From Haloplanus salinus (GTDB lineage: Archaea; Halobacteriota; Halobacteria; Halobacteriales; Haloferacaceae), in contig NZ_QPHM01000001.1 of NCBI RefSeq assembly GCF_003336245.1, positions 1,178,001-1,242,000 on the forward strand: a DNA stretch of 64,000 nucleotides, in the 5' to 3' direction. Below the pieces are notes generated by a model. The model did not search any database. It was not told the DNA's origin and saw nothing but the letters and a program-made list of their open reading frames with translations. This document shows positions 34,000 to 42,744 of this stretch, piece after piece. Numbering within the stretch: position 1 is the first letter of the stretch; each line of letters opens with the position of its first letter. The translations under genes were made by a program, and so were the position numbers.

Positions 34000-34866
34000 A
34001 TGCAACGACGCGCTGCGGCCATCTACGTCGCGTTCTTCATCGTGCTCGGCGCGGCGTCGTACTCGGTCATCGCGACGGCCACTGCGCCGACGGTCGAGTT
34101 CGACAACCCCGACCACAGGCTCTCCCAAGGCGATCAGTTCTCTGTCGACGATCGACAGTACACCGCCTCGTCGATCTCGGCCGAGACGTCCGGTGGCGGC
34201 GGCGGTCACGGCGGTGGTGGCGCGAGCGTCACCCGCTCGGGCGAACTCTCTTGGACCAACGACACGGCCCGCTACACGCAGACGTGGGAACACAACGCCA
34301 CCGTCACGTATCAGAACGAGACCTATCGCGTCCTCGTGGAGGACGCCGACGATCCGGCGTCGTTCCAGTTGGTCGAGGAGATAAACCGCACGGCAATCCT
34401 GCAGGAGGATTCGGCCGTCGAGGACGAGACGGTCACGGTGAACGGCACGGAGTACGTCGTTCGGCAGGACGATGACGGTCGGACGCTGACGCCCACGAGC
34501 GAGTACTTCCCGACGCCGGGGTCGACGAACTACGCCGAAGGCGACAGCCTCCGGTTCCAAGGTAACACCACCACCGTCGCCGACGTGACGGGGGAGGGCG
34601 CGACCCTCGCGTGGACCGCGCCGCGGACCAACACCGTCAGCGTGGATAACGAGGCGAACGTCACGGTGAACGGCCAGCAGTACTTCGCGTACTTCCCCGA
34701 CAACAGCACGCTCGTCCTCGAGAGCGACTACGGCGTCTACCAACGGCAGACGAACGAGATGGACACCTACCACGAACACGTCAACGGTCTCTGGGGCGTC
34801 TCTATCGTCAGTTTCTCGACGGCCATCGTGCTGCTCGGTATGGCGTACATGCCGTCGCGGTACTGA
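34000..34866 (+). CDS. Membrane-anchored extracytoplasmic protein
   Basis: A 288-residue haloarchaeal protein with an N-terminal helix (about 7-28), a large extracellular beta-rich region with many Asn-X-Thr sites (typical of haloarchaeal N-glycosylated proteins), a Gly/His-rich segment (SGGGGGHGGGGAS), and a C-terminal helix (about 265-283, VSIVSFSTAIVLLGMAYM). No enzyme motif is seen. GTTATACG lies 27 nt before the ATG. It converges on the ba3 oxidase operon and may be related to it, which is inference. Confidence 0.7.
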   Translation: MQRRAAAIYVAFFIVLGAASYSVIATATAPTVEFDNPDHRLSQGDQFSVDDRQYTASSISAETSGGGGGHGGGGASVTRSGELSWTNDTARYTQTWEHNATVTYQNETYRVLVEDADDPASFQLVEEINRTAILQEDSAVEDETVTVNGTEYVVRQDDDGRTLTPTSEYFPTPGSTNYAEGDSLRFQGNTTTVADVTGEGATLAWTAPRTNTVSVDNEANVTVNGQQYFAYFPDNSTLVLESDYGVYQRQTNEMDTYHEHVNGLWGVSIVSFSTAIVLLGMAYMPSRY

Positions 34867-35965: not shown

Positions 35966-37645
35966 TTAGACGGGGATCGGCGGGCTTCCCGGGGCGAACA
36001 GGCCGTCGGCGAGCATCGCCGACAGCGGCAGACCGTAGGCGAGCACGATCAAGACGATGGCGATCGCCGTCCAGAGTTTCAGGTTGTCGAGGATCTTCGG
36101 GCTGTGTTCGGGCCCGGAGAGCGGCGTCGGGAGCGTTCCGTTGACCCGGAGGGGAGCGGTTCGGCTACCGCCGAGCCACGTCGCGAAGATGACGAGGAGG
36201 AACAGCATGAGGCCCAGGAACAGGAAGACACCGCCGATAGCGATCTGGAGACGCATCTCACTGACGCCGCCGACGACGCCCTGGAACGTGACGGCGTCGT
36301 ACTGCGGTTCGGCGGTCCGGCGCGGGATGCCCGCGAGGCCGGCGCGATGCATCGCGTTCGACATCAGCGTCATGCCGACGAACCAGATGTACGGCTGGAC
36401 CGTCGCGACCGAGCGAAGCCGCAAGCGCTTGCCGGTGATCTGCGGGAACAGCCAGTATCCTATCGCCATGAACGTCAGCGCCGACGCGGTGCCGACGGTG
36501 AGGTGGAAGTGACCCGGCACCCACAGCGTGTTGTGGACGAGGTAGTTGATGTTCATCCCGGCGTTGATAATACCGGAGAAGCCACCGGCGGCGAACATCA
36601 GGCCGGCGAGCGCACAGCCGGCGAAGGCGGGTTCGTCCCAGGGGAGTTTCCGGAGCCAACTGAGGCGGCCGCTCCCACCGCGCTGCCGAGCCCCGTGTTC
36701 GATGCTGGCGACGACGGTGAAGGCAGTGAGGAAACTGGGCAACAAGAGGAACATCGTGTTCGTCATCGCGATGAATTTGAATCCTTCCGGAATGCCGGGG
36801 TCGGTGTACTGGTGGTGGAAGCCGACCGGCGTCGACAGCAGGAGAAAGAGCACGAAGACCACTCGCGCGAGCGGGTCGCTGAACAGGCGCCCCCCGGCGA
36901 GTTTCGGCAGGACGGTGTACCAGATGAAGTACGCCGGCATGAGCCAGAAGTAGACGACGGGGTGACCGAAGTACCAGAACAGCGTCCGGGTGAGCAACGG
37001 ATCGACGCTCTCGATGATGCCGAGCGACCACGGCAGGAGAAAAAAGAGCACCTCGACTGCGACGCCGGCGGACGAGATGTACCACATCAGCATCGTCACC
37101 AACACCATGAACGTCTGCAGCGGGATTCGCTCGCCGGGGTTGTCACCGCGCCAGCGCCAGTACGTGCGGAACCAGTCGAATCCGGCCATCCAGGTGCCGA
37201 CGATGAACAGCACGAGTCCGGTGTAAAAGGCCGGGTGCGCCTGCATCGGCGCGTAGAACGTGTACAACACGTCGGCGTTGAACGGCATCGAGGGGACCAG
37301 CCCGCCGAGGATGGTCACCGTCGCCGTGAGTGCCCCGACGAACATGAACCCGAACCAAGCCATCGTGAACCGTGCGCTCGGAAGCGGTCGGTCGAGGCTC
37401 TTGGTGACGCCCCAAGTGAACAGCCCACAGAGGGCGAAAATGGTGAAAAAGAGCGCGAGGAGGACGCCGTGTCCCGTGAGCACCGAGTAGTAGTCGGCGG
37501 AGCTCACGAAGCCACGGAAGACGTCCGTGCGGTGAAGCGCCTGAATCATGCCGAACAGGCCGCCGATGCCGAGGGCAGTGAAGGCCACCAGCAGATTCCA
37601 GCGAACGATACGTGCGTCTGTCGGAAAGTCGTCGACGTATGCCAT
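35966..37645 (-). CDS. cbaA: ba3-type heme-copper oxidase subunit I
   Basis: A 559-residue subunit I of a type-B (ba3) oxidase that reduces oxygen at a heme-CuB centre. Visible elements are LTGHGVLLALFF (low-spin heme His), FGHPVVYFWLMPAYFIWYTVLP (CuB His and the tyrosine region), and HNTLWVPGHFHLTVG plus a GFHHQYTDPGIPEG loop with the CuB histidines. About 13 helices are predicted. The ATG at 37645 follows cbaB by one base. This enzyme pumps protons at low oxygen in haloarchaea. Confidence 0.94.
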   Translation of the reverse strand: MAYVDDFPTDARIVRWNLLVAFTALGIGGLFGMIQALHRTDVFRGFVSSADYYSVLTGHGVLLALFFTIFALCGLFTWGVTKSLDRPLPSARFTMAWFGFMFVGALTATVTILGGLVPSMPFNADVLYTFYAPMQAHPAFYTGLVLFIVGTWMAGFDWFRTYWRWRGDNPGERIPLQTFMVLVTMLMWYISSAGVAVEVLFFLLPWSLGIIESVDPLLTRTLFWYFGHPVVYFWLMPAYFIWYTVLPKLAGGRLFSDPLARVVFVLFLLLSTPVGFHHQYTDPGIPEGFKFIAMTNTMFLLLPSFLTAFTVVASIEHGARQRGGSGRLSWLRKLPWDEPAFAGCALAGLMFAAGGFSGIINAGMNINYLVHNTLWVPGHFHLTVGTASALTFMAIGYWLFPQITGKRLRLRSVATVQPYIWFVGMTLMSNAMHRAGLAGIPRRTAEPQYDAVTFQGVVGGVSEMRLQIAIGGVFLFLGLMLFLLVIFATWLGGSRTAPLRVNGTLPTPLSGPEHSPKILDNLKLWTAIAIVLIVLAYGLPLSAMLADGLFAPGSPPIPV

Positions 37646-37646
37646 A

Positions 37647-38153
37647 TTAGCTACCCTCCGCGGAGTACTCGTCTTCGGGAACGACGACGAGTTGCCCCGC
37701 CATCGTGTGGTGGGCGGCACCACAGTACTCGTGACAGACGATGCCGTACTGTGCCGGCTCGTCGAATCGGACCGTGACCTCGCTGACCTGTCCGGGCACC
37801 GCCATCACGTTGACGTTGGTGCCGGCGACTTCGAAGCCGTGGACCACGTCGGCGCTGGTGATGTAGAACGTCACCTCGGAGTTAGCCGGGACGCGGATCG
37901 GCGAACCGGTGCCCGGCTGAAAGAGGAACTGGCGGGCGACCACGTGGACCTCGTACTGGTTCTCGCCGGTCTGTGTCACGCCGGGATCGCCGAATTGGGT
38001 CTCGCCGAGCGATCCGGAATCGATCGTTCCACCGGAGTCGTCGACCATCGTCACGCCCGGACCGAGCGCACCGTACGTTACCGTCGCGATGAATCCGACG
38101 ATCAACAACAGTGCGGCGGCCGTCCATAGCTTCTCGTATCGGTGAATTTCCAT
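37647..38153 (-). CDS. cbaB: ba3-type oxidase subunit II
   Basis: A 168-residue subunit II with one N-terminal helix (about 10-30) and an extracellular cupredoxin domain. The CuA site is seen as His105 (VVHGFEV) and the block CHEYCGAAHHTM with Cys140, Cys144, His148 and Met151. It receives electrons from the halocyanin-type protein encoded just upstream and passes them to subunit I. ATG at 38153, 12 bp after the halocyanin fusion gene. Confidence 0.94.
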   Translation of the reverse strand: MEIHRYEKLWTAAALLLIVGFIATVTYGALGPGVTMVDDSGGTIDSGSLGETQFGDPGVTQTGENQYEVHVVARQFLFQPGTGSPIRVPANSEVTFYITSADVVHGFEVAGTNVNVMAVPGQVSEVTVRFDEPAQYGIVCHEYCGAAHHTMAGQLVVVPEDEYSAEGS

Positions 38154-38165
38154 GTGTGTGTCCCC

Positions 38166-39086
38166 CTATCCGATCACCGTGGGTCCGCCGCCGAGGAACT
38201 CGACGAAGTACATGAACACCCACAGTAGGCTGATGATGCCGGCGTAGATGATGATGAGCGTCGCAGTGCCGTACGGGTTGAAGTCGTCGTGGCCGAGGTC
38301 ACGGACGATACCCGACTCGAACACCGACTCGGTGGGCGTCCGTTCGGCCAACGAGCGGGCGGCGGCCGTCGTGCCGCCGGTCGTGAACTCGTCGTAGTTG
38401 ACGAACACCCACGCGGTGACGCCGAGGACGACGGCGAGGGCCGCCACGACGGCGCCCCCGACCATCCGGAACGCGAGCGTGAGGGCGGGCGAACTACCGG
38501 CCGCTTCGCCACCGCCCGTCTCGCCGCCGGCGCCGGTACCACCGCCGCCACCGCCACCGCCACCGCCACCGCCACCGCCGGAGGGTGCCGCGCCGACGAC
38601 GATAGCGCCTTTCATCCCGAGCGCGAGGTGTGGTTGGCAGTAGTACTTGTAGATGCCTTCGGTCTCGAAGGTGAATTCGTGGGAGAAACCCTGATTCTCG
38701 ATAGCCTCGACGCCGTCCCACCCGGAGTCGGACGGCTGTTCCTCGATCAGGACGTTGTGGGTGTTCGACACCCACTCGAAGGTGACCGTCGTTCCGGGGT
38801 CGATCCGGACGGCGGCGGGACCGTACGCGTACGGTCCCCCGTTGCCCTGTGACCCGACTTCGATCGTCACCGAGTCCTGGCCGGTTCGATCGACTGTGCC
38901 GTCGAAGTTCCCCGTCTCGCCCCCAGTACCGCTCCCGAACCAGCCGCCGTAGTCGACGCCGCCCTGAGCGGCGGCGGTGCCGGCAATCCCCGTTCCGGCG
39001 ACGCCGGCGGCGACGGTGCCCGCCGCCGTCCGGAGCGCCGCCCGCCGGGTGAGCGTTCGCGGGCCACCGTCGGGGTCCCGTTTCAT
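38166..39086 (-). CDS. Halocyanin domain fused to a CbaD-like membrane module
   Basis: A 306-residue fusion. A Tat signal (TRRAALRTAAGTVAAGVAG) leads into a blue-copper halocyanin domain (about 45-165) with His110, Cys150, His153 and Met158. A run of 14 Gly (170-183) follows, encoded by a CCACCG hexamer array, then two helices at about 201-229 and 273-298. The C-terminal part resembles the small membrane subunit of ba3 oxidases. The fusion would tether the electron donor to the oxidase. First gene of the cba operon. Confidence 0.85.
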   Translation of the reverse strand: MKRDPDGGPRTLTRRAALRTAAGTVAAGVAGTGIAGTAAAQGGVDYGGWFGSGTGGETGNFDGTVDRTGQDSVTIEVGSQGNGGPYAYGPAAVRIDPGTTVTFEWVSNTHNVLIEEQPSDSGWDGVEAIENQGFSHEFTFETEGIYKYYCQPHLALGMKGAIVVGAAPSGGGGGGGGGGGGGGTGAGGETGGGEAAGSSPALTLAFRMVGGAVVAALAVVLGVTAWVFVNYDEFTTGGTTAAARSLAERTPTESVFESGIVRDLGHDDFNPYGTATLIIIYAGIISLLWVFMYFVEFLGGGPTVIG

Positions 39087-39237: not shown

Positions 39238-39259
39238 ACGACTCCCCGAGGATCGCAGT

Positions 39260-39439
39260 ATGATTTCGGTCCATCGGGTACCGATCGTGGGCCTGCTCGC
39301 ACTGCTTCCGGTCGCACTGTACGCGTTCTCCCTGCATTCCATCGTCGGCATCGCGCTTGTCAACGTCGTCCTCATCGCGGCGAGCGTGTACATCATGTTC
39401 CTGCCCAGCGAGTCGACGGTCAAGACTGCATCCGCGTAA
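39260..39439 (+). CDS. Small CbaC/CbaE-like ba3 oxidase subunit
   Basis: A 59-residue protein with two helices (about 8-26 VGLLALLPVALYAFS and 28-49). I recall similar short proteins beside ba3 oxidase genes being annotated as cytochrome-ba3 oxidase subunits; I cannot check this here. The ATG at 39260 has a TATA box 28 nt upstream. It is divergent from the cba operon and followed 3 bp later by the TauE/SafE gene. Confidence 0.65.
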   Translation: MISVHRVPIVGLLALLPVALYAFSLHSIVGIALVNVVLIAASVYIMFLPSESTVKTASA

Positions 39440-39442
39440 GCT

Positions 39443-40233
39443 ATGATGCCACTCGTCGGTGCGTCGGGCGTGCTTCCCGCCGTACAGGGAGACGTCGGGT
39501 TGCTCGTCTTCCTGGCCATCGGCGTCCTCGGGGGCGCGCACTGTCTCGGCATGTGTGGACCGCTGGTGACGCTGTACGCCGACCGGATGGGCGCCGAGGC
39601 CAACCGCGTGCGACCGATCGACGTTCGCCAGCATCTCCTGTTCAACGCCGGGCGGACGGCCAGTTACACCCTGATCGGAGCCCTGATGGGCGCTCTCGGC
39701 GCCGTCTTCTTCGACGCCGCCGCCGTCGCCGCCGTCGCGACCGACGTCCGCGCCGCGACCGGGATTCTGGTCGGCGGCTTCATCATCTTCACCGGGGCTG
39801 GCTACGTCGTCCGTGGATCGATCGGACACGGCGGCTCGCTGCCCGTCGTCGGTGAGGCCTTCACGCGGATGTACGGCGCGGTCACGGGCCGCGTCGACCA
39901 GTGGGTCGGCGGCCCGCGGATCGCCGCCCTCGGCGCGCTCCACGGCTTCCTGCCCTGTCCCCTGCTCTATCCGGCCTTCCTCTACGCCTTCGCCGTCGGC
40001 TCCCCGCTTCGGGGGGCGCTGTCGCTCGCCGTCCTCGGCCTCGGTACCGTGCCGACGCTGCTCGCCTACGGCACCGTCTTCCAGTCGCTCGGTTCGGGAA
40101 CGCGGGTGGGACTGCACCGGGTCCTCGGCGTCGCATTCGTCGTCCTCGGCTACCTGCCGTTGGCGCACGGGCTGATGCTCGTCGGCATCCACATTCCCCA
40201 CCCGATGATCCCCGTCTACCAGCCGCTGGGATA

Positions 40234-40234
<1 letters not shown>
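39443..40234 (+). CDS. TauE/SafE-family (COG2836) membrane protein
   Basis: A 263-residue protein with about seven helices and the motif GGAHCLGMCGPLVTLYADRM, typical of COG2836 proteins that accompany cytochrome oxidase copper-assembly genes in bacteria. The paired Cys could move copper or reducing power across the membrane. Its TAA overlaps the ATG of the copper ATPase gene by one base (TAATG), which couples translation. The pairing with a FixI-type ATPase supports a role in oxidase copper supply rather than sulfite export. Confidence 0.82.

Positions 40235-42744
<2,510 letters not shown>

Follow-up and report, generated by a model that had tools for sequence, protein, structure and literature searches.

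The window analysed here, a stretch of 64,000 nucleotides of the Haloplanus salinus genome, carries a gene that joins a halocyanin, through a glycine-rich linker and an additional transmembrane helix, to CbaD (subunit IIa) of an oxidase of the ba3 type, a label that reflects a CuA motif and a COX1 domain, no model used having placed subunit I in the ba3 type. The halocyanin has its copper ligands, and the neighbourhood of the fusion is conserved. It is likely that the product serves as a captive electron donor to the CuA centre of this oxidase, with a copper domain that would lie outside the membrane and pass electrons to CuA, and the single copper domain found here may be what was left by the collapse of a tandem.

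Architecture of the fusion and its neighbourhood

The N-terminal signal of the fusion (Table 1), which we take to be Tat-like, precedes a halocyanin domain in which residues 57-164 match TIGR03102 in a profile search, with an E value of 1.4e-33 and 115.3 bits against a curated cut-off of 93.8. The fusion also matches Pfam Copper-bind (E 7.7e-16), and the relatives of the domain with solved structures are pseudoazurin and plastocyanin (best E 1.1e-11). The four copper ligands are unchanged across an alignment of 32 rows, and none of the 67 halocyanin domains in a set of 40 distinct fusions departs from the H..C..H..M pattern, which is also kept in 54 of the 55 domains of 28 later fusions, the exception being the shortened first domain of one locus (L219). 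With the TIGR03102 score above its cut-off, the Copper-bind match and all four ligands, the blue-copper domain proposed in the initial annotation is confirmed, and the arrangement of copper domain, glycine-rich and predicted-disordered linker and two-helix module beside the CuA subunit is supported.

Table 1. Features of the fusion gene and its neighbours, in positions of the window; residues are those of the fusion protein
Feature	Position	Strand	Remarks
Halocyanin-CbaD fusion gene	38166..39086	(-)	306 aa, ATG start, stop included
N-terminal signal, residues 1-41	38964..39086	(-)	TRRAALRTAAG...AAAQ by sequence; without lipobox Cys
Halocyanin (type 1 copper) domain, residues 44-164	38595..38957	(-)	ligands His110, Cys150, His153, Met158
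Flexible linker, residues 166-197	38496..38591	(-)	21 Gly among 32 residues
14-Gly run, residues 170-183	38538..38579	(-)	GGCGGT hexamer array
Transmembrane helix 1, residues 200-229	38400..38489	(-)	hydropathy, charge, AlphaFold
Transmembrane helix 2 (CbaD/subunit IIa), residues 271-298	38193..38276	(-)	NPYGT at its start
Oxidase subunit II (CbaB-like)	37647..38153	(-)	CuA motif CHEYCGAAHHTM
Oxidase subunit I (CbaA-like)	35966..37642	(-)	COX1 7.2e-90
Small ORF	about 39259-39440	opposite to fusion gene	upstream side
DsbD_2-family membrane protein	39443..40234	(+)	divergent neighbour; 1.9e-47

An AlphaFold model computed from the 32-row alignment contains a confident cupredoxin at residues 41-160 (block-mean pLDDT 84-98), a disordered stretch at residues 171-198 (pLDDT below 50) and helices at the two places given in Table 1; because the mean pLDDT is 74.4 and the pTM 0.51, the placing of these parts relative to one another in the model is unreliable.

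The fusion is the first gene of the oxidase cluster in Haloplanus and sits directly upstream of the reading frame for the CuA subunit II, which matches CoxB TIGR02866 (3e-22, under its cut-off) and COX2 (9.1e-11). Of 128 CbaD loci, a set that includes some genomes counted twice from two collections, 127 have a CuA motif less than 1 kb downstream; the exception has only 443 bases to the end of its contig. On the upstream side the small ORF is presumably CbaE-like, the DsbD_2-family neighbour may have a role in assembly, and the other strand also carries a gene whose sequence, judged by eye, is that of a heavy-metal P-type ATPase. The N-terminal part of this ATPase has a perfect hexamer array of its own (GCCGAC x 5.2, 40411-40441), which codes for an Ala-Asp repeat. 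At 34000-34866 on the plus strand there is a membrane-protein-like ORF of 288 aa with the motif GGGGGHGGGG, every Pfam match of which falls below its cut-off.

The genome as a whole holds two COX1 genes, one cytochrome b match and, besides the fusion gene, eight further matches to the query, some of them weak or interrupted by stops; a search of plasmids gave partial halocyanin matches, none spanning 80% of the query. One halocyanin elsewhere in the genome (L004 1501-2127, on contig C1 at about 432.1-432.7 kb) has a glycine-rich linker and, by eye, one C-terminal helix. Its position, two genes ahead of cytochrome b, suggests that there may be a leashed halocyanin on the donor side as well.

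The membrane part had been described as a two-helix module, and both helices are indeed there, but they do not form a generic anchor, as helix 2 is CbaD and only helix 1 is extra. The sequence PYGT occupies residues 271-274, with P271, G273, T274 and W289 invariant in the 32 rows; ProXaaGlyThr is given as the CbaD motif in the available portion of PMC3128077. Helix 2 aligns with stand-alone CbaD, and the notion of two helices serving as a simple anchor was rejected on this ground. In the ba3 oxidase of Thermus, according to the part of PMC3141039 that was accessible, subunit IIa is one helix that lies parallel to the subunit II helix and has the opposite orientation to that in aa3, and the accessible text of PMC3128077 agrees on this polarity. 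With the CuA domain outside, subunit IIa should therefore run from inside to outside, and because the halocyanin would also be outside, at the N terminus of such a subunit, one more crossing of the membrane would be needed. Helix 1 is the probable candidate, as a topology helix that would run from outside to inside.

The distribution of this additional segment is consistent with such a role. All 36 fusions of a first set have a second hydrophobic segment before the CbaD helix (hydropathy of at least 1.6), as do all 28 of a later set (at least 1.55). Among the 71 named loci in which no halocyanin domain was detected, ten of which had too little sequence before the motif for scoring, such a segment occurs in only 4, and in one of these four (L136) it is probably a read-through into untranslated sequence. 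Summed over 68 distinct fusions, lysine and arginine number 23 in the 20 residues before helix 1 and 220 in the 20 after it, with more after than before in 59 fusions, equal numbers in eight and fewer in one; the bias is weak in Haloplanus, where the ten rows have 7 before and 9 after. Counter to the reading of helix 1 as an addition made for the halocyanin, four loci (L095, L158, L167 and L177) have this helix without a halocyanin domain. Three of them (L095, L167 and L177) still have a signal-like start together with a short glycine-rich stretch, as though the gene had lost its copper domain.

The glycine linker

The pure run of 14 glycines coded by a hexamer array, as first noted in the initial annotation, was recovered as CCGCCA x 5.8 at 38545-38579 with 100% matches. 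GGC and GGT alternate strictly in 11 of the 14 glycine codons, a regularity that exceeds chance both with 14 random glycine codons drawn according to the codon usage in eight ORFs nearby (P = 1.1e-4) and with shuffles of the same 14 codons (P = 0.0034). At the same site there are 7 glycines in G004 and 8 in G001, two congeners with a tandem form of the fusion, and the difference from the 14 found here looks like hexamer expansion. Over 40 distinct fusions the distance from the end of the domain to helix 1, by a hydropathy rule, is 23-50 residues with a median of 29, and the longest glycine runs in that interval are 14 (the gene of the window), 11 and 10. A run of 12 was found in L210, where everything between the first domain and CbaD was scored, and G001 has 15 glycines between its two halocyanin domains.

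Such runs are common in the genus. A GGY pattern of 10 codons has matches in 10 of the 12 Haloplanus genomes, and when overlapping matches are merged by eye they form 31 distinct tracts of at least 10 codons; the pattern read backwards as a control matches the same tracts and is uninformative. Halocyanin matches, fusions included, account for 13 tracts, and the other 18 comprise two in lipoprotein halocyanins, 14 that directly follow a lipobox cysteine or lie close to one and two that are unassigned, the lipobox being called by eye after the accessible portion of PMC2945643. The idea of a glycine run peculiar to the oxidase was accordingly rejected, as 29 of the 31 tracts belong to these halocyanin and lipobox classes. 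In the lipoproteins at L189-L195, L198-L203 and L206 the tracts have 10-20 glycines, and many of these proteins resemble substrate-binding proteins by eye.

These observations bear on the proposal that the run is a tunable tether, in which slippage of the hexamers, under selection, sets the reach of the donor and with it the rate of electron transfer. The codon alternation beyond chance and the variable run length among congeners (14, 7 and 8) are what such a mechanism would leave behind, but poly-glycine is generic in the tethered proteins of the genus, and the ten Haloplanus fusions keep 38-50 residues between domain and helix while their longest glycine run goes from 4 to 14. We consider selected tuning improbable. 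Of the earlier suggestion that the array could expand or contract and so adjust the length of the tether, expansion is what the sequences resemble, but tuning is unsupported, because poly-glycine is a generic membrane tether in Haloplanus. The exact number of glycines probably reflects near-neutral slippage within a permissive tether. By simple arithmetic, not simulation, and counting 3.6 Angstrom for each residue, a linker of 32 residues has a contour of about 115 Angstrom, which would be ample for reaching the CuA of the same complex and perhaps that of a neighbour.

Distribution and domain number

Within the order, a CbaD-like match was found in 240 of 392 genomes and the full-length fusion, at E <= 1e-55, in 59 of the 392, from 15 genera and five families. 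These 59 are the matches that cover the model from position 1 or 2 to position 245 or 247; 72 genomes matched in total, 13 of them in the halocyanin part only, and fusions scoring below the 1e-55 limit would escape the count. According to the translated loci, from which domain numbers were taken (a listing of open frames served as a first guide only), two halocyanin domains stand in tandem in 51 of the 59 genomes and a single one in eight, and no three-domain fusion was seen among 68 distinct fusions. The first fusions from outside the genus had been picked by their long frames, which biases their one-to-two ratio; the 59 were not so picked. The 51 include the tandem frame with a shortened first domain (L219, in genome G330), which may be a frameshift or a decaying copy. 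The counts of the fusion and the prevalence of the tandem form are new here, and in a partial literature search no title or abstract opening that was found names a tandem halocyanin-CbaD, although unpublished status is not claimed.

The tether is not essential, because halocyanin is absent from 71 of 80 named CbaD loci in haloarchaea. A cytochrome b gene occurs in 57 of the 59 fusion genomes as against 225 of the 333 others, as counted by eye, two of the 57 matching only at about 8e-41; this association fits a supply of electrons from the cytochrome b complex, but it is confounded by family.

In Haloplanus the fusion is present in ten of 12 genomes, that of the window included, eight with one domain and two (G001 and G004) with two; none was found in G002 or in G010, which is 79% complete. 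Because so many congeners share the one-domain form and two more have a two-domain form, a frameshift is unlikely, and a frameshift or assembly artefact as the cause of the fusion was rejected.

The gene of the window itself looks like a collapsed tandem, in which a two-domain ancestor would have lost its second domain, because its sister has two domains and because it has the body of a first domain on the junction of a second. In a tree of subunits II and I with 12 rows, the window gene and the two-domain G004 are sisters at 97/97 and the number of domains changes at least twice within Haloplanus; 6 of 9 inner branches in this tree are open, and of three intended outgroups L071 was left out, its downstream end not having been found. 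In a tree of the domains, which is built on few columns and leaves 28 of its 64 inner branches open, the eight single domains and both Haloplanus first domains form one set (SH-aLRT 88, not starred), outside which the second domains of G001 and G004 lie. There are 17 diagnostic sites at which both first-domain copies agree and differ from both second-domain copies; up to nucleotide 300 the window gene is first-domain-like at eight of nine scorable sites, a tenth being neither, and from nucleotide 364 to 374 it is second-domain-like at seven of seven, a switch seen in none of the other seven single-domain Haloplanus genes. Its junction, GAAPSG, is that of the second domain of G004.

Several observations run counter to a collapse. 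The nearest relative of the whole fusion by identity is the one-domain G007 (85%, full length), the window gene pairs with the one-domain G009 in the domain tree (SH-aLRT 85), the diagnostic sites at 364-374 are adjacent and all within a short junction, and in comparison with G004 alone the window gene is mixed before site 364. One could thus suppose that a single domain is ancestral in Haloplanus and that G001 and G004 each gained a second one independently, the more so as eight of the ten Haloplanus fusions have one domain. The two domains of one protein pair with each other, with starred support, in 6 of 27 two-domain proteins in the domain tree, a pattern expected from recent duplication or from gene conversion, and one or the other of these processes therefore seems to recur; other two-domain proteins, of which the f4/g39 group is an example, have first domains and second domains that for the most part fall into different sets. 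This alternative is rather unlikely, as it would have to accommodate the second-domain junction of the window gene and the position of both Haloplanus second domains outside the set of single and first domains. The loss of a second domain from a tandem ancestor therefore remains the preferred account of the gene in the window.

Proposed function and known systems

The captive donor would work as follows. The halocyanin domain would be exported and sit outside the membrane, and helix 1 would return the chain to the inside, which would allow helix 2 (CbaD) to take its place next to the CuA subunit of the oxidase while running, as is native to it, from inside to outside. Held near CuA by the glycine-rich linker but still mobile, the tethered halocyanin might accept an electron, the probable source being halocyanins that the cytochrome b complex supplies, and hand it to CuA. 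One might argue instead that the fusion serves assembly or stoichiometry only, with a free halocyanin as the real donor and the tethered one as a docking or storage site. The eight other query matches in the genome, of which one neighbours cytochrome b, would provide candidates for such a free donor, and unfused CbaD occurs in many haloarchaea. The retention of the ligand pattern in 67 of 67 and 54 of 55 domains, both tandem copies included, speaks against this alternative, which we regard as distinctly unlikely.

A broader and more doubtful extension of the captive donor is that many haloarchaea have a leashed copper-to-copper chain from cytochrome b to the oxidase with no diffusing carrier. 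The cytochrome b end would be a protein made of halocyanin, linker and helix, the oxidase end one or two halocyanins on CbaD, and the number of domains would shift between one and two through recombination inside the gene. Apart from this extension, a donor built into the oxidase would offer a purifiable one-to-one pair of donor and acceptor, and the natural series of zero, one and two copper domains with varied linker lengths makes models of tethering testable.

The caa3-type oxidases, in which a cytochrome c domain is fused to subunit II, also have a covalently tethered electron donor. That donor is a heme c on subunit II, whereas here it is a blue copper on subunit IIa. In haloarchaea the role of one-electron carrier is attributed to halocyanin rather than to cytochrome c, one argument being the fusion itself, and electron flow in haloarchaea without complex III is called unresolved (PMC8305020, available portion).

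Fusions of this kind are already known. As far as the accessible parts of the sources go, halocyanin-CbaD (IIa) fusions have been described from Halobacterium and Haloarcula and have served to argue that the oxidase is supplied by halocyanin (PMC3128077, PMC8305020, PMC3403918, PMC2674319). In Halobacterium salinarum (OE_4073R, HcpB-CbaD) and Haloarcula marismortui the halocyanin-CbaD gene is likewise directly upstream of subunit II; the present fusion has one domain and a run of 14 glycines, whereas the extra helix, linker and number of domains of those fusions are not discussed in the portions of the text available. The ba3 oxidase of Natronomonas pharaonis (cbaDBAC) is of the same type and gene order as that of Haloplanus in the accessible part of PMC3403918, but there CbaD is a separate small subunit and the halocyanin a separate, lipid-anchored protein (PMC2945643, available portion).
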